Source: Candidatus Chlorohelix allophototropha (GTDB lineage Bacteria > Chloroflexota > Chloroflexia > Chloroheliales > Chloroheliaceae). Taken from it: a DNA stretch of 64,000 nucleotides. Location of the stretch: assembly GCF_030389965.1 (NCBI RefSeq), contig NZ_CP128399.1, forward strand, positions 1,426,001-1,490,000, given 5' to 3'. The position numbers were made by a program, and so were the translations under genes. Below the pieces are notes generated by a model that was given only the letters and a program-made list of their open reading frames with translations, was not told the DNA's origin and did no database searches. Positions 2,867-28,812 of this stretch are shown piece by piece. Within the stretch, counting starts at the first letter, position 1; each line of letters begins with the position of its first letter.

Positions 2867-3736
2867 CTATTCTGAAATCAACCCCGCATTTAAAAGGGCA
2901 GAATAGAATTGGTCAGCGTAAAGGTGTATAATACAATATTGGTAAGCTCTATTACTGGATTTTACTTTGATTTCTCCGCTAACCTTTAAATTTTTGTTCA
3001 CGTCATTATGTTTCCAATTATTTAAAATATCCTTATATTTGCTATCTTTCTGTTCGTCATCCGCACAATCTCTCAGTGCTCTAATTGTTGCTATTTGGAC
3101 ACGAAGTAATTGATTACTTAGATCAATGAGTGCATTTGGAAAAAGTAAGTTTATTATCTCGTAAAGATCACACAAAGCGTTTAAACATTGCTTACTATTT
3201 ATAGTCAGTGGCAATGAGTTTGGGTCGTGAAAAAAGCTATTGCGTGTATTTCTTCGATCTTTTATACGATGGAGGATAGAATGTATGAGTTGATTCGCAG
3301 GTAATAGATGACGGTTTTTAACCTCCTCTACAATTTGGCTGAAGCTTTTAAACTTACCTGCTGATATATCTGCGGACCAATCTTCAAGATAAGGATAATC
3401 AGTAAGAATCTTATCTAACTTTTCTATTTGACTAGCTTTACTTTCAATTTCCAAATCGTTTTTAAATGTAGCTAAACCGTTATCAATGTTTTTGCAATAT
3501 TCCTTAAAAGCATTCTGGTGTTTTTTAGTTATAATCAATTTAGCATTTTTCAGTTCTATTAAACATTGTTGCTGATAATCACCACTGTCCTTAATTAACC
3601 AACTCTTCAATGTCAACTCACAAAGATCATCAATTTGAATAAAAACAGATTTTACGTGACGTTCAGGATTAACATTCAGGAGATAGATTTCGTTAGTAGT
3701 TTGAATTAATTCTATCAAATCATCAATATGAGACAT
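2867..3736 (-). CDS. HEPN-like protein linked to restriction-modification genes
   Basis: Protein of 289 residues with no confident family match by eye. It is mostly helical and Lys/Asn/Ile-rich. Residues 165-170 read RNSFFH, fitting the Rx4H signature of HEPN ribonucleases, inside a predicted helix after HSILHRIKDRR. HEPN proteins commonly act as RNases in toxin-antitoxin and phage-defence systems, so an RNA-cleaving or abortive-infection role is an inference only. Its ATG overlaps the stop of the specificity-subunit gene by one base (TAATG), strong evidence of co-translation. Base composition is markedly AT-rich like its two upstream partners and unlike the flanking genes, suggesting joint transfer. 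Confidence 0.6.
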   Translation of the reverse strand: MSHIDDLIELIQTTNEIYLLNVNPERHVKSVFIQIDDLCELTLKSWLIKDSGDYQQQCLIELKNAKLIITKKHQNAFKEYCKNIDNGLATFKNDLEIESKASQIEKLDKILTDYPYLEDWSADISAGKFKSFSQIVEEVKNRHLLPANQLIHSILHRIKDRRNTRNSFFHDPNSLPLTINSKQCLNALCDLYEIINLLFPNALIDLSNQLLRVQIATIRALRDCADDEQKDSKYKDILNNWKHNDVNKNLKVSGEIKVKSSNRAYQYCIIHLYADQFYSALLNAGLISE

Positions 3737-5139
3737 TAATAGGATGCTCCATTAACTATCATATCTTCTATTTGTTGCTTGGCAGTTTCTAAAAGTCGTA
3801 CCGCATCCTCTTCAGCATTTCGTGATTGGGTTAATTTCTCTTGGATTTTAGCACTTAATCTTTTCATTAATTCGTTGTCGAAAAGTGGAATAAGGATTTG
3901 ACGCAAATTGCTTAACCCCAAAAATGGGTTAATTTGTCCAGTAGAGAGTTGCTTTGCTAATAATTTTCCTGCTTCAGAATTTAAGAAGCCAACAATAAAA
4001 TAAGAATAAGGGTTAAATTCAGGTTTTAATCGAAGTAAAGCTATATCCTGGTTTATATTTATTGGACTAGGTAAATTAGTTACCAATACAGCATTACCGA
4101 TACGTCCTTTGATGGTGACTAACAGATCACCTTCATGTAATTGAGTTCGTTTTAATTCATTTTGGTGATGTTCAAGGGTAATGCGATTTTCTGTATTAAA
4201 ATTAATACGGAAATCATAAATATTTTCAGCAGTTAAAAAGGGGATTTCACCTATAGACAAATTATGTCGCAAAGGCGTATGCCCATTAGTTAGGACATCT
4301 AATAAATCCCCTAAAGGAACTAACTGTTTTGGTTTAAGGGTTCTAATAGAATCGATTAATTGATAATATTTTAATCTGAAAAACTCAGCATCAAGACGTT
4401 GAGAATCCATAACTTCGTTAGAATTAGCTATATAAGTTAATTGTGAGGAAAGGTCTTTAATGTTAAGATCTAATTCCTTAATTAGTAGGTTTTCGGCTTC
4501 AACATAAAAAGCTTTTGCTGTATGCCTTAATTCACGCGATTGTGAAACATATGAGGCAATTTCTTCCTCAAAACGAGAATCTAATTTTGGAATTGGAATT
4601 GAAGCTAAATCATCAGGATAAATTTCAATTTGCCCTGAAGACCCACGCTGTCTCTGCTCAATTAAAGCAAGCCCAACTTTTGATTGAAGGAACACGCTTA
4701 TAAATCTCGGGTCTCTTTGAGTAATACCCCTCAATATAGATATATGACCATCAGCGAAAAATGGAGTGTTTTCATCTACATATGTTACACGCCCTAAAGT
4801 TCCTACACCCGTAGAAGTAATTAAAATATCAAGGTTATAAACTTGACCACGAGGATTTTGTTGGTAAAAATCTTCATTTACGTATTCTTGACGTGTATCA
4901 CTGAATCCTTCTTCTCGAATATTTACTGTTCTTAAAACTGGTATGCTTCCATCCCCATTATATACTGGTTGTAGCCCTCTTTTTATGTATTGTGCCACTT
5001 TACCAAGAGGGGTCCATTCAAAACCTTTGACTTTTTTCTCAATATCTGCATAATCCTGTCTAAAATATTCAGAATCTAATCTATGATTTTCATATGTTTC
5101 TACAATACTTCTAACACTCCATAGAGCCAAAATTAACAC
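3736..5139 (-). CDS. restriction-modification specificity subunit (HsdS-type, two target-recognition domains)
   Basis: DNA-sequence recognition subunit of 467 residues with two target-recognition half-repeats. The first begins near TPLGKVAQYIKRGLQP and contains IPVLRTVNIREE. The second begins near VPLGDLLDVLTNGHTP and contains IPFLTAENIYDF. Each is followed by the helical spacer typical of HsdS (for example ELDLNIKDLSSQL and the C-terminal KIQEKLTQSRNAEEDAVRLLE). It sits 8 bases after the methylase-fusion gene and overlaps the HEPN-like gene by one base. It should direct the adjacent nuclease-methylase to its site; the target sequence cannot be predicted here. Confidence 0.88.
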   Translation of the reverse strand: MLILALWSVRSIVETYENHRLDSEYFRQDYADIEKKVKGFEWTPLGKVAQYIKRGLQPVYNGDGSIPVLRTVNIREEGFSDTRQEYVNEDFYQQNPRGQVYNLDILITSTGVGTLGRVTYVDENTPFFADGHISILRGITQRDPRFISVFLQSKVGLALIEQRQRGSSGQIEIYPDDLASIPIPKLDSRFEEEIASYVSQSRELRHTAKAFYVEAENLLIKELDLNIKDLSSQLTYIANSNEVMDSQRLDAEFFRLKYYQLIDSIRTLKPKQLVPLGDLLDVLTNGHTPLRHNLSIGEIPFLTAENIYDFRINFNTENRITLEHHQNELKRTQLHEGDLLVTIKGRIGNAVLVTNLPSPININQDIALLRLKPEFNPYSYFIVGFLNSEAGKLLAKQLSTGQINPFLGLSNLRQILIPLFDNELMKRLSAKIQEKLTQSRNAEEDAVRLLETAKQQIEDMIVNGASY

Positions 5140-5147
5140 TCCTCGTT

Positions 5148-7250
5148 CTATGAATATATGAATTGAAAATTGTTAGCTTTGGCAAATTCAATAAAAGCTT
5201 CGGCAATAGTAGGGCGTATAGGGATATAATTGAGAAGTTCTTCGCAACGTTTCTTATGATCTTCAAGCCTTTTAGGGTTTGTTTTATCACGTTTTAACAA
5301 ATTAGCTAGCTGCTGTTTGAGAACATAATGTATATCAAATAAATCCTGGTCAATTATCTTGTGGTTATAAAGATCGAGCAGAGGTTGCCCAGTCTTATCT
5401 TTAAGATAAATATATTCCCCAGAGTTATCTTTGCCTGGATGTTGGCTGACAGCAAAAAAGATAGGATAATCTGAGAGGGGAAGACAAAGTGGTCCTACTT
5501 CAATATCTTTATTCCACTTTTGTAAAAATAAAACACTAGTTTTTGTGCCAGTATGCGGCTTAAAAGTGTTAACATCCAAACCGACAACTGCGAGAATACG
5601 GCAATGCTCAGAGATAAAGCGACGAATGCGCTCATCACCAATATTATTTAAACGACCTTGAGGAAGTACGATAGCCATTCGTCCACCGGGTTTAAGGAAT
5701 TCTAAATTACGCTCGATAAAAAGTATATCCCGACCAACGCTATTCTGCCATTTGCCTTTACCTTGACGAGCAAGATCATATTGATAAATTATACGGGTAT
5801 CTTTAATGTCTCCTGCAAAAGGAGGATTTGTAAGAATAACATCAAAGTCGAAATAACGAGGAAAGTTATAATTGTCTTCATCCTGTTGAGGATTTTCCAA
5901 AAATCGGCGGCGGCGTTCACGCATGTGAACACGAGCTTCATCACTCCATGATTGAGGATCTAAAGTATTCACTCTGAAAACATGAGTGCGACCATCTCCA
6001 GCAATCATGTTAATTGCTTTTGCGATTTTTACACTTCGAGCATCAAAGTCCAAACCATATACTTTTTCGCTAGCATATTTACGCTGCCATTCTTCTGGTT
6101 TTTGAGCAGTAAGTTCTCCACCCCAAACATGAAAGATACTGTGAACAGTAAAACCACAACTTCCTGAAGCTGTATCTATAACATACTCTTCAAAACGGGG
6201 ATTTAACATTTTGACTGCCATATCAATAACGGGACGAGGAGTAAAGTATTGACCTTTAGCACCTTTAGCAACCTGAGTAACAAGGTATTCAAAGGCTTCA
6301 TCAATAATTTGAAGATTAGCATTAAATAGTTTTAAATCCTGTAAGAAAGAAACGCAACTAGCCAAGTGGGCAGGAGTTAGATCGATCTTTTCACCCGGCA
6401 AGAAAACACCCGGCCATTCCCTCTGAGCTAAAATAAAAAGATTGTTGATTCGAGTGTAAACTTCCTGATAAGTACCTCCAAGCCGAAATGTTACAACACG
6501 ATGTCGGTTCGGGTTATTTTCAGCCATTGATTCATCATAGAGCTTTGCATAAATAAGTTTAAAAACCTCCTCAAAACCATCTACACCAGCATTGGCTAAA
6601 ACAAGATTCTCCATAGTTGTAATGACATCGCGCAGAGAGACTTTTTCAGTAACAAGTTTGTTACGTTCAGCTAACTCATCAATGGTTACTTTTTCATTAA
6701 TAATGTCGTTTAGGGATTGATCAATACGTGGTAGATCGCTAATGCTAAGATAGATATTAGGTTCATCTCTACGCCATACTTCCTTTTGTCTACCATTTGT
6801 CCAAACAGCTATCGGCGCGCCTTGAGCGTTGCAATAGGACTTTAGTTGCTCCTCGCCGTCTTTACGCTTGGGTTTTTTGACTTCTACAATAATATAAGAA
6901 GTGTTTGGGTGGTCTTTTTCACAAATCCAGATATCAGCACGTTTATCAGCTATTGTAGAACCGAATTGTACAGGTTTTTCAAGAGTGATTCGGCTAGGTG
7001 GGTATCCATATTTATGTATAAGCTGGTAAAGAAATAATTGTCGTACTATCTCTTCAGGGGTAGCGAGTCGCTCTTTATTACCAGAGAAATCACGCAGATA
7101 AAGTTTATCGTTTTTTTCGATAAATTCAAGTGCCTCGATTTCATTCTTGTCAAAAATATCAATTGAATGGTCGCTGGTGCGAAAAATATCAGCTAATATA
7201 TTACTATTGGTAGTAGCCAAGCTATTCTCTATCCTCTCTAGATTCAACAA
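5148..7250 (-). CDS. fused HsdR-N-type nuclease / N6-adenine DNA methyltransferase
   Basis: Single polypeptide of 700 residues combining restriction and modification parts. About residues 60-160 resemble the HsdR N-terminal nuclease domain, with a PD-(D/E)xK-type arrangement: RADIWI (Asp) then YIIVEVKKPKR (Glu-x-Lys). From about residue 300 follows an HsdM-like methylase: GQYFTPRPVIDMAV, motif I as DTASGSCGF, and catalytic NPPF in ILTNPPFAG. No SF2 helicase/translocase domain is present and no separate hsdR gene adjoins it. The arrangement therefore resembles BcgI-like type IIB/IIG enzymes more than classical type I. The start is uncertain: TTG at 7250 has no clear ribosome site, but no ATG gives the full nuclease domain. 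Confidence 0.85.
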   Translation of the reverse strand: MLNLERIENSLATTNSNILADIFRTSDHSIDIFDKNEIEALEFIEKNDKLYLRDFSGNKERLATPEEIVRQLFLYQLIHKYGYPPSRITLEKPVQFGSTIADKRADIWICEKDHPNTSYIIVEVKKPKRKDGEEQLKSYCNAQGAPIAVWTNGRQKEVWRRDEPNIYLSISDLPRIDQSLNDIINEKVTIDELAERNKLVTEKVSLRDVITTMENLVLANAGVDGFEEVFKLIYAKLYDESMAENNPNRHRVVTFRLGGTYQEVYTRINNLFILAQREWPGVFLPGEKIDLTPAHLASCVSFLQDLKLFNANLQIIDEAFEYLVTQVAKGAKGQYFTPRPVIDMAVKMLNPRFEEYVIDTASGSCGFTVHSIFHVWGGELTAQKPEEWQRKYASEKVYGLDFDARSVKIAKAINMIAGDGRTHVFRVNTLDPQSWSDEARVHMRERRRRFLENPQQDEDNYNFPRYFDFDVILTNPPFAGDIKDTRIIYQYDLARQGKGKWQNSVGRDILFIERNLEFLKPGGRMAIVLPQGRLNNIGDERIRRFISEHCRILAVVGLDVNTFKPHTGTKTSVLFLQKWNKDIEVGPLCLPLSDYPIFFAVSQHPGKDNSGEYIYLKDKTGQPLLDLYNHKIIDQDLFDIHYVLKQQLANLLKRDKTNPKRLEDHKKRCEELLNYIPIRPTIAEAFIEFAKANNFQFIYS

Positions 7251-19408: not shown

Positions 19409-20290
19409 TTGAGCTTCACTACGCAAAGTGGGCAAGCAGTGATGATGGACGGCAAGGCGCTGGCGAAAGAGGAACGCGAACGCTTGAAAGCCGAAGTTGC
19501 TACCTTTACTGAAAAACATGGATTTGCGCCGGGCTTGGCGGTAGTGCTGGTCGGTAATGACCCCGCCTCGATTGACTATAGCGGGGTATTGGTACGGCAC
19601 GCTCGCGAATATGGGATGCACGCCCTTCATCATGTGCTACCTTCTGGAATCAGCTTCGAGCAGTTCACGGAGGAAATTGCCGGATTGAATGCCGATAAGT
19701 CTATACACGGCATTTCAATCCAATGGCCTGTGCCGGGTATTGATCAATCACACGCCACCCTAACGCTCGAACCGCGCAAAGATGTGGAGGGTTACCATCC
19801 TATTTCTACTGGCAAGCTCTTCAGTGGAAGCGATACTTTTATTCCGGCTACGCCCCTCGGCGGGTTGCGCTTGCTGGAACACTACGGCTACAAACTGTAC
19901 GGCAAGCTCTGTCTGGTGGTAGGCTTTGGCGTTACGGTTGGGCGACCGCTCACTGCTTTATTGATTGCAGCAGGCGCAACCCCCGTTGTAACGCATTTGC
20001 CAACCCCGCGTGAGACTTTGGTTAAGCTGGGGCGGGAAGCGGATTTTATCTTTGGGGCAGCAGGAGCGGCACACCTCATCACTGGAGAGATGGTCAAGCC
20101 CGGCGCAGTGGTGGTGGATTTTGGCATGAGCTTCATTGATGGCAAGATGTACGGTGATGTAGAAGTGGAAAGCGTAAGACAGGTAGCGCAGGCAGTTACT
20201 ACCTCGCCTTCGGTAAGCGGTCGCCTGACTTCAATTGCGCTGCTGGAAAATGTGCTGAAAGCGGCGCGACAGCAAACGGAACAGTTATGA
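19409..20290 (+). CDS. folD: divergent FolD-like methylenetetrahydrofolate dehydrogenase
   Basis: FolD fold, 293 residues, starting at TTG (AGGAG at 19397-19401, seven-base spacer). Conserved: the VVLVGNDPAS substrate loop, KDVEGYHP, and a Rossmann half with VVGFGVTVGRP. Altered: the Tyr-x3-Lys catalytic pair reads Y57-S-G-V-L61, so the lysine needed for cyclohydrolase activity is replaced by leucine; QLPLP is QWPVP; the usual VPGGVGPMT near the end reads SPSVSGRLT. Only dehydrogenase activity is therefore expected. The next gene, overlapping by four bases (ATGA), is a cyclohydrolase-family protein that could supply the missing step. It is possibly an MtdA-like enzyme. Confidence 0.82.
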   Translation: MSFTTQSGQAVMMDGKALAKEERERLKAEVATFTEKHGFAPGLAVVLVGNDPASIDYSGVLVRHAREYGMHALHHVLPSGISFEQFTEEIAGLNADKSIHGISIQWPVPGIDQSHATLTLEPRKDVEGYHPISTGKLFSGSDTFIPATPLGGLRLLEHYGYKLYGKLCLVVGFGVTVGRPLTALLIAAGATPVVTHLPTPRETLVKLGREADFIFGAAGAAHLITGEMVKPGAVVVDFGMSFIDGKMYGDVEVESVRQVAQAVTTSPSVSGRLTSIALLENVLKAARQQTEQL

Positions 20291-20922
20291 GTGAACTTTT
20301 AAGCGATAAGACGGTAAGCGATTTTCTAGCGCAACTCGGTTCGGATGCGCCTACACCGGGCGGTGGCGGGGCATCGGCGCTGGCAGGGGCAAACGCCGCC
20401 GGGCTAGTGACAATGGTGGCGCGTTTGACCATAAGCAAAGAAGCGTTCGCAATACACGCCCCACGCATACAGGAAATTATTAACGCGGGGGACAAAGCGC
20501 GAATTGTGCTGGAAAAGGCAATTGACGCGGACGCGGAGGCGTTTGAAGCGGTGATGTCCGGTTATCGTTTGCCGCGTGCCACCCCAGAGGAGAAAGCAGC
20601 CCGCGCTGTCCGTATCCAAGAAGGGCTGAAAATCGCTACCGAGTCGCCTTTGAATATCGCCCGATATAGCGCAGAGATGGCAGAATTGGCAGCGGAACTC
20701 GCCGAAATCGGTAATCCACAAGCTATTTCCGATGCAGGTACAGCGGCATTGCTGGCAGAAGCGGCGGTACAAGGAGCGCTATTGCAGGGATGCATCAACC
20801 TGAAATCGCTCAAGGATGGTGATTACGTAGCGGCAGCACGCGCCGAAATCGAGCAGTTAATTGAACGCGCTTCTAACGCCCGTTCTCGCGCCCTCGCTAC
20901 TACACTCCAAAAATTAGCGTAA
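20287..20922 (+). CDS. methenyltetrahydrofolate cyclohydrolase / cyclodeaminase family (FchA/FTCD-C)
   Basis: All-helical protein of 211 residues matching the formiminotransferase-cyclodeaminase C-terminal family, which also includes the stand-alone cyclohydrolase FchA. Signature: DAPTPGGGGASALAGANAAGL (about 20-40, the glycine-rich folate loop); a conserved AIDADAEAFEAVM segment (about 79-91); and the C-terminal GCINLKSLKDGDYV. It follows the FolD-like gene with an ATGA overlap, so the pair should interconvert methylene-, methenyl- and formyl-tetrahydrofolate with the two activities on separate polypeptides. Confidence 0.88.
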   Translation: MSELLSDKTVSDFLAQLGSDAPTPGGGGASALAGANAAGLVTMVARLTISKEAFAIHAPRIQEIINAGDKARIVLEKAIDADAEAFEAVMSGYRLPRATPEEKAARAVRIQEGLKIATESPLNIARYSAEMAELAAELAEIGNPQAISDAGTAALLAEAAVQGALLQGCINLKSLKDGDYVAAARAEIEQLIERASNARSRALATTLQKLA

Positions 20923-25194: not shown

Positions 25195-25992
25195 TTAAGA
25201 ACCAGTTCCCGCTTCCGGTTTCTTTTCTTCTGGTGGAAGTTGCCGACGCTCTAAGCCGTAACTCTCCTTTCCTAAAGTGCGGTAACTGCTACCTCTTAAA
25301 TAAAAAACTTCTCCGTGATGCAATAAACGGTCAATAATCGCCACCATCAAGGCAGTATCACCACCCTCGATCAGTTCGCCCCAGTTAGAAAGGCTTTTGT
25401 TACTGGTAATGATCGTAGCACCTCTGAGGTAACGTCCGCTGATCAGCTCATATAAGGCCGGACCTACACGTGCGTCCATCGGTAAATAGCCCAGTTCGTC
25501 TAATACCAACACCTGACATTTCAAAAGCGGCTCTAAAATCCTGGCTATTTCCTGGCGAGTGCTAGCCGCAATCACTTGGTTCGCCAGTTGTTGAGCCGTA
25601 ATGAACTTTACGGTGTAACCCAACTGCACCATCTTAATTCCGGCTGCAATCGAAAGATGGGTTTTCCCAAGCCCACTTGCCCCGATTAGGAGTAAATTCC
25701 CAGCTTTTTCTACAAAACTGCTGTCGAAATAGCGTAAAATCACGCTGCGCTTCAGTTCCGGGTGGCGACTGAAATCGAATTGTTCCAGGCTGGCTTCAAA
25801 AGGGAAACTGGCTGAGTGCAAACGCTTTTTGAGTTGGTTCTCCTGACGAGATAGCAACTCTTCGCTTAACAATTCTTCTAAAAACTCCCCGTAATCCATT
25901 CCGGTTTCGCGTGCCCGTTCAATCCAATCGCTGTATACCTGTTTTACCCTGCCCAGTTTTAGGCTGGTGAGTTTATGTTCCAGACTATTCAT
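25195..25992 (-). CDS. istB: IS21-family helper ATPase IstB
   Basis: AAA+ ATPase of 265 residues that loads the IstA transposase on target DNA, resembling DnaC/DnaA. Walker A is GASGLGKTHLS (about 103-113), Walker B VLVLDELGYLP (about 161-171), followed by the sensor-like ATIITSNKSLSNWGE. The N-terminal LTSLKLGRVKQVYSDWIERA region is the IstB-N domain. The start overlaps the istA stop by four bases (ATGA), as in most IS21 elements. Full length, apparently intact. Confidence 0.95.
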   Translation of the reverse strand: MNSLEHKLTSLKLGRVKQVYSDWIERARETGMDYGEFLEELLSEELLSRQENQLKKRLHSASFPFEASLEQFDFSRHPELKRSVILRYFDSSFVEKAGNLLLIGASGLGKTHLSIAAGIKMVQLGYTVKFITAQQLANQVIAASTRQEIARILEPLLKCQVLVLDELGYLPMDARVGPALYELISGRYLRGATIITSNKSLSNWGELIEGGDTALMVAIIDRLLHHGEVFYLRGSSYRTLGKESYGLERRQLPPEEKKPEAGTGS

Positions 25993-27512
25993 CCCACCGC
26001 CCTTTCTATTTCATTTTCCTCAGGTATGGCCGAAAAACGGTTGGCCACCAGTGGTTCGTATTCACTGAGTAGCCGTTCCACCGCTGGTTGAGTGGGCTTG
26101 AGGGTAGCGGCATTACTGCCTGAACCCGCTGGCTTGAGTAATAAACCCTTGAGATATTCCGCCCCGTAAAGCTGTTGTTCCGTTGCCAATTCCACCGCCG
26201 CCTGGAATTCTTCCAGCCCTACCTGCTGGGCCAGCGCGTATAGTTGGTGGATTTGTTCACTCATGGTGGCTCTTTGCCGTCGACAGATTACCGCCACATA
26301 CTGGTACACTTGCGGTCCTAAATTTAACAACCAATCCCGCCACACCATGGTTCTGGCTCTGGGTTTGATCTCAAAAGCTTGGGTGTAATGTTCCGGTATT
26401 ACTAAGCGGCGGTTTCGGGAATAACAACGGGGGTGCTGTGCCACCAGTTCCGTACCCCGCCATAACTTCAGCCATTCCCGATGTATCCGGGCTGTCAGGG
26501 TTTGTCCCATTAGTTCCGCCGGTACGCTATATTTGTTGGTCTCAAAAATGACTACCCCTTCCCGGTTTACCACCAGGCTGGTAAATAAACCGTAATCCCG
26601 GGCACTAGCAGGCAATGGGCTGAAGTGTTTACGCTCTATTTCCAGTAAGCTACCCGGAATTTCCCCGGTCGCTGCGCATGTACGCTCGTAATTCACTACC
26701 CCTAACCATTCTTCCAACTGCCTTACCAGATCCGCCGCATCGTAGAATGTACGACCAGCTAGAAAATTGTTTTTGGTATACTTTACCAAATTTTCTACGG
26801 CACCTTTCTGGTTTCCGCTGGCCGGGGCACAGGCTTCCGGGTGAAACTCGAATTCTAGTGCCAGTTTCTGCCACACCGGATGCCACACTGGTTGGTTCTT
26901 TTCATCTCGCCTCAGTACCACCGTCTTCATATTATCCGTGGTAATTACCCACGGTACTCCCCCCATCCGGTTGAGGGCTTCCACCAGGCAGCGCACCAGC
27001 GTTTCTTCGGCCATATCTTTCTGAAAGCTCACATACATAAAACGCGAGTATTTCAGCCGGGCACAGAAAAAGTAGAAGGTTTGGGGTACACTATCTTGTT
27101 TACTGAACAGCACTCCCCGAATTTCACCCCAGTCTATTTGCAAAAACTCTCCAGGTAAGCCCTCAAAACGTATCTGTACCTGATGAGCCTGGTTCTCTCT
27201 GGCTTTTTTGAGCTTGCGCACATAGTCATAGAAGGCGGTGGGTCTGCCACAGTAGGGCTGTTTGGGATCTTCCCACGCTAGTTCCAGCATTCTTTTCACT
27301 TGTAGTTTTTGTTCTAGCCAGCCTTCAATCTGTTCTTTGAAGACTGCCACACTACTTTCACGATTGGGGCGGGTTTGTACCTTGTCGCTAGGTTCATTTA
27401 GCACTCTTTTTACGGTACGGGCATCATGTTGCACTTTGCCCGCAATTACGTTGTAGTTGTCCCCTCGTTTCCGGTGGTACTTTATTGCGCTTCTGGCCAT
27501 AACTTCTAACAT
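25989..27512 (-). CDS. istA: IS21-family transposase IstA
   Basis: Transposase of 507 residues with an N-terminal helix-turn-helix region (RKRGDNYNVIAGKVQHDARTV) and an rve-type DDE core: FLQIDWGEIRG (Asp), WVITTDNMKTVV (Asp) and NQKGAVENLVKYTKNNF (Glu), followed by the IstA C-terminal domain. The three acidic residues are present, so the enzyme looks active. ATG 27512 abuts its AAGGAG; the in-frame ATG at 27500 is an equally possible start. Co-translated with istB. Confidence 0.95.
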   Translation of the reverse strand: MLEVMARSAIKYHRKRGDNYNVIAGKVQHDARTVKRVLNEPSDKVQTRPNRESSVAVFKEQIEGWLEQKLQVKRMLELAWEDPKQPYCGRPTAFYDYVRKLKKARENQAHQVQIRFEGLPGEFLQIDWGEIRGVLFSKQDSVPQTFYFFCARLKYSRFMYVSFQKDMAEETLVRCLVEALNRMGGVPWVITTDNMKTVVLRRDEKNQPVWHPVWQKLALEFEFHPEACAPASGNQKGAVENLVKYTKNNFLAGRTFYDAADLVRQLEEWLGVVNYERTCAATGEIPGSLLEIERKHFSPLPASARDYGLFTSLVVNREGVVIFETNKYSVPAELMGQTLTARIHREWLKLWRGTELVAQHPRCYSRNRRLVIPEHYTQAFEIKPRARTMVWRDWLLNLGPQVYQYVAVICRRQRATMSEQIHQLYALAQQVGLEEFQAAVELATEQQLYGAEYLKGLLLKPAGSGSNAATLKPTQPAVERLLSEYEPLVANRFSAIPEENEIERAVG

Positions 27513-27655
27513 CTCCTTCTCGTAGCTCCTCTCTTCTCACCCTTCTTGCCAATAGTGTTGCTAGAACAACTATTCTACAAAATTGGTCTTCTAAGAGAAA
27601 CCCAAAACGGCATTTTTATCCCGGAATCCTTTTCCTTTCCTTCCCGTATTCTACA

Positions 27656-27660
27656 GCCTT
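27656..27660. repeat. target-site duplication of the IS21-type element (right copy)
   Basis: GCCTT directly after the right terminus TCTACA; same as 25010-25014. Confidence 0.85.
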
Positions 27661-28741
27661 GAGCGATTTGCAATTCGTCGTGTACCAAACTGACTATCGC
27701 CGTCCACAACTCAAACTGGCTCGGATAGCGCAAGCGTGGTTTTTCCCACAACAAATCTTGTTTGTCAAAACGATAGCCGTGTTCTATCGAGTAACGCCTC
27801 TTGTAATACGACCAGACTTGCGTCAGGTCAAGCTCAGTTTGACCCGACCACACATACCAACTTTCCAGAGGGTCATGGGTTTTACCACTGGCTGCCTCAC
27901 GCTGTATTCGGATTATGCTCAGTGCCAGTTCAGGTGCTTCCCTCAAATGCAGCTCAGTCCATGCGCTTACTACCAGTTTGTGTCCATTTTCGTCCGTCCC
28001 AACCCACACTCGCTGCGGCAAACCGTGCGTATTGGGATCATTACATTGGAAACGAGCACCGTGTTTAGCGGGAGCGCCGCGACCTCGTTTCTGCTCATCT
28101 CTCACCACTTTTCGATAGAATACTCGGTTAGACTTGAGCCGCAGCAGCAAGTCATAGTCCTTACTGCTATTTTGAATAAATGCTTTGGTGGGGTAGTACC
28201 GGTCTCCCAGATTGAGCGGTCTTTCAGCAAAATATGGGCGCAATTCGCTCAGTTGCTGGCTGGCTACCTCTGCTGGTGTTTGACTGGTTTTGATCCTGCG
28301 GTTGGAGACAATGTATGTATGGCTACTGGTTTGAGCCGGCACCACCACCACGGTCGAGAATTGCCAACCCACGGTCACGGGCTTATCACAATTGGGCAGA
28401 TTGTGTTTGTAAAGCCAGCCACGATCTGCAGATGTAGTGCTAAAGGGTCGCTCGATATTGGTAGCATCCACTGCCAGTACCAATCTTTCACCATCGAAGG
28501 GATGAGGGGCGTAGCGCACCATGGTTTGCTCGAAGCGAGTTTGGTTAACTTGACCCATTTGCAAAGCCTCATACAAACTGGGCCATTTTCGCTCAAAATT
28601 GGGCGAAAGGGTCAGTTCCAGTACCGATTGAGCCTGGCTTTCTGTCATAAGGGCATCCGCCAGATTAAACAATGCGTCACTGGCGTATTCAAAGCAGTCA
28701 TAGATTTCGTGCCGAAATTCTTTAAGTGTGTTAAGGTTCAT
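27661..28741 (-). pseudogene. N-terminal part of the split IS4-type DDE transposase
   Basis: Carries the catalytic core: LVLAVDATNIERP (first Asp), LGDRYYPTKAF (second Asp) and YKRRYSIEHGYRFDK, a perfect Y-(2)-R-(3)-E-(6)-K box with the catalytic Glu. The genuine sequence stops at ELQIAQG where the IS21-type element begins. Translation would continue into that element to a stop at 27575, adding foreign residues and losing about 80 native C-terminal ones. ATG 28741 has AAAGGA upstream; a TTG seven codons earlier is possible. Activity of the truncated protein is doubtful. Confidence 0.9.
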
Positions 28742-28812
28742 ACGAGTAGTGTCCTTTCTCAATTAGAACATTACTCGTCTGGGCAAGTTGTGCCAACACT
28801 GCTTGCCCTTTG

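Follow-up and report, generated by a model that had tools for sequence, protein, structure and literature searches.

In methylotrophs the dehydrogenase and the cyclohydrolase reside on two proteins, MtdA and Fch, and a gene of the FchA family lies beside the dehydrogenase gene. Aluri and colleagues are said to have reported in 2016 that the FolD of Clostridium perfringens, annotated as bifunctional, is a dehydrogenase only, that FchA is the cyclohydrolase, and that E. coli FolD can be replaced only by the two together. Yeast MTD1 (1edz) we take to be a dehydrogenase-only relative of FolD, with neither cyclohydrolase activity nor the catalytic lysine. One paper says that MTD1 has "only cyclohydrolase function", yet describes the dehydrogenase reaction (PMC11064299).

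The lysine in question belongs to the Y-x3-K motif. In the usual view (PMC3338484, PMC3368264) it serves as general acid/base and is positioned by a glutamine. In E. coli the K54N enzyme has no detectable cyclohydrolase and about 19% of the dehydrogenase activity, and Q98H keeps about 8% of the dehydrogenase and about 1% of the cyclohydrolase; spontaneous turnover was invoked for the mutants (PMC5688156). For MTHFD2, a computational study left the role of the lysine in the cyclohydrolase step undecided (PMC9173628).

The gene pair considered here lies in a stretch of 64,000 nucleotides, called the window throughout, which corresponds to C1:1426001-1490000 of the Chlorohelix genome (6,086,194 bases in 5 contigs, of which C1 has 2,961,161 bases). 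Its features, in window positions, are these.

19409..20290, plus strand: FolD-A, 293 aa from a TTG start, with PF00763 and PF02882
19577..19591, plus strand: codons of the Y-x3-K motif, here Y57 to L61 with leucine for lysine (Y50/K54 in E. coli), from the sequence and the alignment to E. coli FolD
19721..19735, plus strand: codons of Q105-W-P-V-P (QLPLP in E. coli), glutamine kept, from the sequence and the same alignment
19922..19942, plus strand: codons of GFGVTVG, replacing GRSxxVG in the nucleotide-binding domain, from the same alignment
20207..20230, plus strand: codons of PSVSGRLT, replacing PGGVGPMT, from the sequence and the same alignment
20287..20290, plus strand: ATGA overlap of the FolD-A stop (TGA, 20288-20290) and the FchA start (ATG, 20287-20289)
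20287..20922, plus strand: FchA (FTCD_C family), 211 aa, a probable methenyl-THF cyclohydrolase by sequence, with PF04961

Elsewhere in the window, its very start (9-1774) has two overlapping F420-synthesis genes, one CofD-like and one CofE-like, and the minus strand carries type I restriction-modification-like methylase and specificity ORFs with a third ORF (2867-7250), all named by reading their translations. Also on the minus strand, 25195-28762 holds what is presumably an IstB/IstA-like pair with a third transposase-like ORF.

The original prediction was that FolD-A had lost its cyclohydrolase lysine, that its QLPLP and PGGVGPMT blocks were altered, and that the next gene, sharing ATGA, was of the FchA/FTCD-C family. 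The alignment, the open reading frames and the Pfam matches agree on every one of these points. E. coli K-12 Y50/K54/Q98/D121 corresponds to Y57/L61/Q105/E127, thus the lysine of a bifunctional FolD is absent, the pocket glutamine is retained, and D121 is changed too. Both FolD domains are recognized by Pfam (THF_DHG_CYH_C at 5.1e-41, THF_DHG_CYH at 4e-26; PF00763 and PF02882 score 92 and 140.1 bits against gathering cut-offs of 32.8 and 27), and FchA matches FTCD_C at 1.1e-58, with 198.4 bits against a cut-off of 24.5. By the curated NCBIfam models, FolD-A falls below the cut-off of all of the best 25 of 30 FolD models (the best, NF010787, gives 230.3 of 423 bits), and FchA below that of the FchA equivalog NF045657 (185.9 of 275 bits). 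The closest solved relative of FchA is 7vg4, a methenyl-THF cyclohydrolase (5.2e-39), with the formiminotransferase-cyclodeaminase 1tt9 behind it (8.8e-25). The predicted structure of FolD-A has a mean pLDDT of 92.3, falling to 79 over residues 261-270, where the altered PGG loop lies; its top matches in the PDB are FolDs (4b4u, TM 0.90, 36% identity), which points to the two-domain fold of FolD. Given family and predicted fold, it seems that the split was indeed reached from a FolD, as had been proposed.

Does the genome hold a canonical FolD elsewhere? A profile search found three FolDs above the cut-off (a fourth match, below it, was left out of the reads), and none has K54. In FolD-B (C1:769146-769985) N and L stand in place of Y and K; FolD-C (C1:355218-356066) keeps the tyrosine, has A for K54, and retains GRS and most of PGG. 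A search for FTCD_C found a single copy, so FchA is the sole recognizable cyclohydrolase of a genome in which a K-less FolD is linked to FchA and no K-bearing FolD was found. The genome gave no match to formate-THF ligase (Fhs, PF01268), and no match to the formiminotransferase domain PF02971; PF02971 was matched in 13 of the 61 genomes of the relative set. Three Formyl_trans_N genes are present, a class that uses or cleaves 10-formyl-THF; by their length they are perhaps Fmt, PurN and a PurU-like protein. Since no ligase was matched, 10-formyl-THF should derive from methylene-THF, and one candidate ring-opening enzyme was found. As side observations, FolD-C (L107:12198-13082) is convergent with the adjoining gene, purE-like by our reading, and its counterpart in a relative (G002, L074) has R for Y50, V for K54 and a changed PGG loop.

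In our opinion FolD-A and FchA are the dehydrogenase and the cyclohydrolase halves of a bifunctional FolD, a reading to which we give a probability of about 0.68. By its sequence FolD-A would convert 5,10-methylene-THF to 5,10-methenyl-THF, and it would still be active despite the altered nucleotide site and PGG loop. Lysine-assisted ring opening would be impossible in it, residue 61 being leucine. FchA would then turn methenyl-THF into 10-formyl-THF for consumption by PurN and Fmt, and the pair would be the likely route to 10-formyl-THF, no formate-THF ligase having been found. The ATGA overlap suggests translational coupling, and the flux is presumed to run in the direction just given. Several observations count against this reading. 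K54N in E. coli loses about four fifths of the dehydrogenase as well, hence the loss of the lysine must be compensated. To this are added the low score of FchA with its equivalog, the few conserved positions kept by the FolD-A of the family, two K-less genomes with no FTCD_C match and at least two with a fused one only, and the small number of lysine changes beneath the counts given below.

That L61 is neither chance nor a sequencing slip follows from its distribution. The search covered 158 Chloroflexota genomes, drawn from a set of 61 relatives and one of 111 phylum-wide with 14 in common, and 153 of them gave the 176 FolDs that we read; G006, G023, G026, G081 and G157, with no FolD or pieces only, were not used, nor were a second copy in G097 and a piece in G153 (C28). 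K54 is kept in 38 of the 176 and lost in 138; its replacement is I in 81, L in 34, V in 20, and A, M and Q in one each. An FTCD_C gene at a distance of 1.5 kb or less accompanies 92 of the 138 K-less FolDs and 0 of the 38 K-bearing ones. All 92 adjacent pairs are on the same strand, with FchA first in 87 and FolD first in 5 (4 of these in the Chlorohelix family), thus the linkage persists across a change of gene order. In the relative set of 61, FolD was matched in 60 genomes and FTCD_C in 59.

We also counted by genome. Taking as standalone, by a rough rule, any FTCD_C whose surrounding open frame is below 450 aa, we find it in 109 of the 116 genomes with only K-less FolDs (5 have it only in a long frame, 2 not at all) and in 4 of the 35 with only K-bearing FolDs (10 long-frame only, 21 none); two genomes have both kinds of FolD, and FTCD_C in neither. 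Among the five long frames, two are truly fused, with PF02971 matched in the same frame (G014, G017), one has no PF02971 match (G058), one has its FTCD_C adjoining FolD (G084), and the last is G082. The two K-less genomes without FTCD_C (G011, G040) are both incomplete. Counted by family (51), 39 have K-less FolDs only, 28 of them with an adjacent pair; 10 have K-bearing only, none with such a pair; and 2 have both.

Outside the Chlorohelix family, the 129 K-less FolDs keep on average 51.1 of the 54 group-conserved positions (minimum 46), the K-bearing ones 51.2 (minimum 41). At positions 40, 51, 54, 263 and 266 the K-bearing FolDs are conserved and the K-less ones differ. This near-equal conservation of the other positions fits selective loss of one activity, not decay, and K-less FolDs are expected, from their sequences, to be dehydrogenases only. 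The split is old and phylum-wide; the idea that the locus is a local oddity was rejected, K54 loss being widespread in Chloroflexota.

Within the Chlorohelix family the putative dehydrogenase half has changed further. Leucine stands at the K54 position in all five FolD-A sequences. For R167-S168 of the GRS motif every one of them has F, H or W and then G; positions 163, 186 and 187 are also changed in all five, and 185, 190 and 196 in four, with H190 becoming D or Q. A changed cofactor preference is possible on this evidence; however, E. coli FolD has A167 and is nevertheless NADP-dependent. The family FolD-A keep 40-42 of the 54 conserved positions. The PGG loop is lost in the window copy alone, as a separate event of this species, the other four having PGGTGPMT or PGGTGPTT.

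These differences bear on an alternative that we consider unlikely, namely that FolD-A is decaying or repurposed and that FolD-C is the working dehydrogenase, with FchA as the cyclohydrolase; the split would be the same, with the dehydrogenase encoded elsewhere. It is indeed true that FolD-A is the only one of its orthologues without the PGG loop, that it keeps 42 of the 54 positions against 48 in FolD-C and 49 in FolD-B, and that FolD-C has the purE-like gene for a neighbour. However, it is FolD-A that overlaps FchA by ATGA, its frame is intact, and its predicted fold is confident. Moreover, three relatives yielded no FolD other than FolD-A, with FchA adjacent and no Fhs match, which argues that FolD-A is functional; it would be needed there if these genomes, 91-93% complete, miss no FolD.

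Another possibility, very improbable in our opinion, is that the FTCD_C gene encodes a formimino-THF cyclodeaminase, methenyl-THF being opened non-enzymatically. The Pfam family is the same, the FchA equivalog cut-off is not reached, and spontaneous turnover has been invoked for the E. coli mutants, as cited above. On the contrary, the lack of a PF02971 match in the genome, the cyclohydrolase 7vg4 as best solved relative, and the linkage of FTCD_C to K-less FolDs and to none of the 38 K-bearing ones all speak for a cyclohydrolase. In one relative, G045, a separate formiminotransferase is present, thus the cyclodeaminase reading is possible in that genome.

We give equally little credence to the suggestion that FolD-A is still bifunctional, with another residue or an ordered water replacing the lysine. 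The unsettled outcome of the MTHFD2 computation leaves room for it. Against it stand the loss of detectable cyclohydrolase in E. coli K54N, the I, L or V at this position in 135 of the 138 K-less FolDs, and the separate FTCD_C gene beside 92 of them.

Other candidates were rejected: a canonical FolD elsewhere (the other two FolDs found in the genome also lack K54), a cyclodeaminase of histidine degradation (no PF02971 match), an MtdA in place of FolD-A (it has FolD domains only), and a FolD-A pseudogene (the frame is open and the predicted fold confident).

We return to the preferred reading, FolD-A as dehydrogenase and FchA as cyclohydrolase, and to its occurrence in other phyla. Among 80 FchA-family loci of named genomes, the flanks contain a FolD in 13, a weak match in 5 and none in 62. 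Eleven of the 13 lack K54 (six Chloroflexota by title, and Nitrospirae, Peptococcaceae, Treponema, Armatimonadetes and Blautia), and the other two, from a Clostridiales MAG and from Desulfosporosinus, retain K54 and carry Q98E. Outside Chloroflexota these flanking FolDs come from four phyla. The five weak matches, from Methylobacterium/Beijerinckiaceae, look like MtdA, a name we infer. A whole-genome search of 50 chosen from the 80 loci (the 30 dropped were mostly Proteobacteria) gave a FolD match in 44. Of 41 FolDs read, some of them the same genes as the flanking ones, 20 have both K54 and Q98, 3 have K54 with Q98E and 18 lack K54; FTCD_C is nearby, within the stretch examined, in 0, 3 and 7 of these respectively. 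No FolD with both K54 and Q98 was thus seen beside FTCD_C among the loci and genomes examined, but such FolDs do occur in genomes having FTCD_C elsewhere, so that outside Chloroflexota the link is one of neighbourhood, not of mere presence. Q98E appears, from sequence, to be another way to alter the cyclohydrolase pair. FolDs with K54 and Q98E beside FchA were seen in Bacillota at five loci (L254, L299, L313, L315, L318), of which L299 and L315 are the same gene, as are L254 and L318.

We reconstructed a maximum-likelihood tree of 88 FolDs by a quick method with SH-aLRT support, omitting columns 50, 54 and 98; each family and type is represented by one or two rows, the Chlorohelix family by all of its nine, and seven rows from other phyla and the E. 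coli enzyme were added. Three lysine changes are needed, and the starred branches force three. The K-less FolDs form a large Chloroflexota group of 64 rows, including one from Armatimonadota (support 88); a group from Bacillota, Nitrospirota and Spirochaetota, to which the K54/Q98E enzymes are sister; and a pair of two families, f37 and f51. It follows that the FTCD_C linkage counts rest on few events, and a test of independent pairs has 3 pairs, a number with which significance is out of reach. The tree suggests that K54 was lost once early in the large Chloroflexota clade and twice elsewhere, and that Chlorohelix inherited its split.

The pair just mentioned deserves separate comment. The genomes of f51 (G153, L134) and f37 (G104, L136) have no FTCD_C match and carry two tandem FolDs each. 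In the first copy K54 is lost and GRSNIVG retained; the second retains Y50, K54 and Q98, with SADNLVG or NVDNMVG at the motif. At the end of a contig G153 has in addition a piece of a third FolD, in which both K54 and GRS are kept. From the sequences of these two genomes the tandem FolDs look like reciprocal losses, one copy serving as dehydrogenase and the other as cyclohydrolase.

As for the extra FolDs of Chlorohelix, FolD-B and FolD-C are found in this genome and G002 only, out of the five of the family (the others are G001, G003 and G004), and among the same five, with 8 genomes searched, the FMO family (PF02327) is found in the same two only. The other three genomes belong to one genus, thus this co-occurrence may be a single event. 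The FolD-B cluster, which is B12-photoreceptor-like (L108:4988-13716, C1 about 767.0-775.7 kb, plus strand), includes CobO and two DUF4388 proteins, one of which also has B12-binding_2 and B12-binding domains. In both genomes FolD-B is followed by the DUF4388 protein and the DUF4388 protein with B12-binding domain; in G002 (L352) this rests on homology, and homologues of FolD-B, of the two DUF4388 proteins and of a 148-aa protein lie together there, where CobO was not seen. The DUF4388/B12-binding protein carries W-x9-EH and N-x-H-x2-G, the former described for CarH photoreceptors (PMC9304148).

Taken jointly, these data allow a broader scenario, which we offer as a speculation that is probably incorrect in some part. 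In most of the Chloroflexota families sampled, loss of K54 would be the rule, accompanied in almost every case by a further candidate for the cyclohydrolase: FchA or, in the two families without FTCD_C, a K-bearing tandem FolD without the nucleotide motif. In the Chlorohelix family the dehydrogenase half would then have changed its nucleotide site, and in the two FMO-bearing members spare K-less copies would have been freed, FolD-B, with Y and K lost, becoming a non-catalytic and perhaps folate-binding partner of a B12 light sensor.

The curated models that match FolD-A are named bifunctional, and a check of one residue would flag 138 of the 176 sampled FolDs of the phylum as probable dehydrogenases only, with an FchA partner in most. 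This would alter models of one-carbon metabolism, chiefly for genomes that, like that of Chlorohelix, gave no Fhs match. The phylum further offers repeated natural experiments, in which a bifunctional enzyme was divided either with an unrelated protein, FchA, or between two FolD copies, and a chance to test how dehydrogenase activity persists without K54.

How does the locus compare with the known systems? The proposal that the two activities of FolD are on two proteins is supported by the sequence analysis, both activities being deduced. The comparison with MtdA and Fch, also part of the original prediction, does not hold as well: FolD-A, in contrast to MtdA, is a true FolD by Pfam, and the FolD and FchA of clostridia and acetogens fit better. 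Yeast MTD1 is distant from FolD-A: phmmer gives it 2.9e-10, and the best bacterial FolD 2.9e-51. The reported split of C. perfringens is like that of FolD-A and FchA, and with this precedent the kind of split is already known; that organism reportedly also has Fhs, whereas none was found in the Chlorohelix genome. FolDs beside FchA in acetogens and other Bacillota have, at K54/Q98, A/L in Blautia (L302), I/F in Peptococcaceae (L285) and K/E in Desulfosporosinus (L299). These pairs form a separate branch of the tree, and some of them keep K54 and change Q98 to E; the K54 loss of Chloroflexota is separate on the tree from that of the sampled Bacillota rows. We found no report of a FolD/FchA split in Chloroflexota in the literature searched, which covers subscription journals thinly. 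As far as that search goes, what is new is the spread across a whole phylum, the setting without Fhs, the altered nucleotide site of FolD-A, and the version of the split made of two FolDs.
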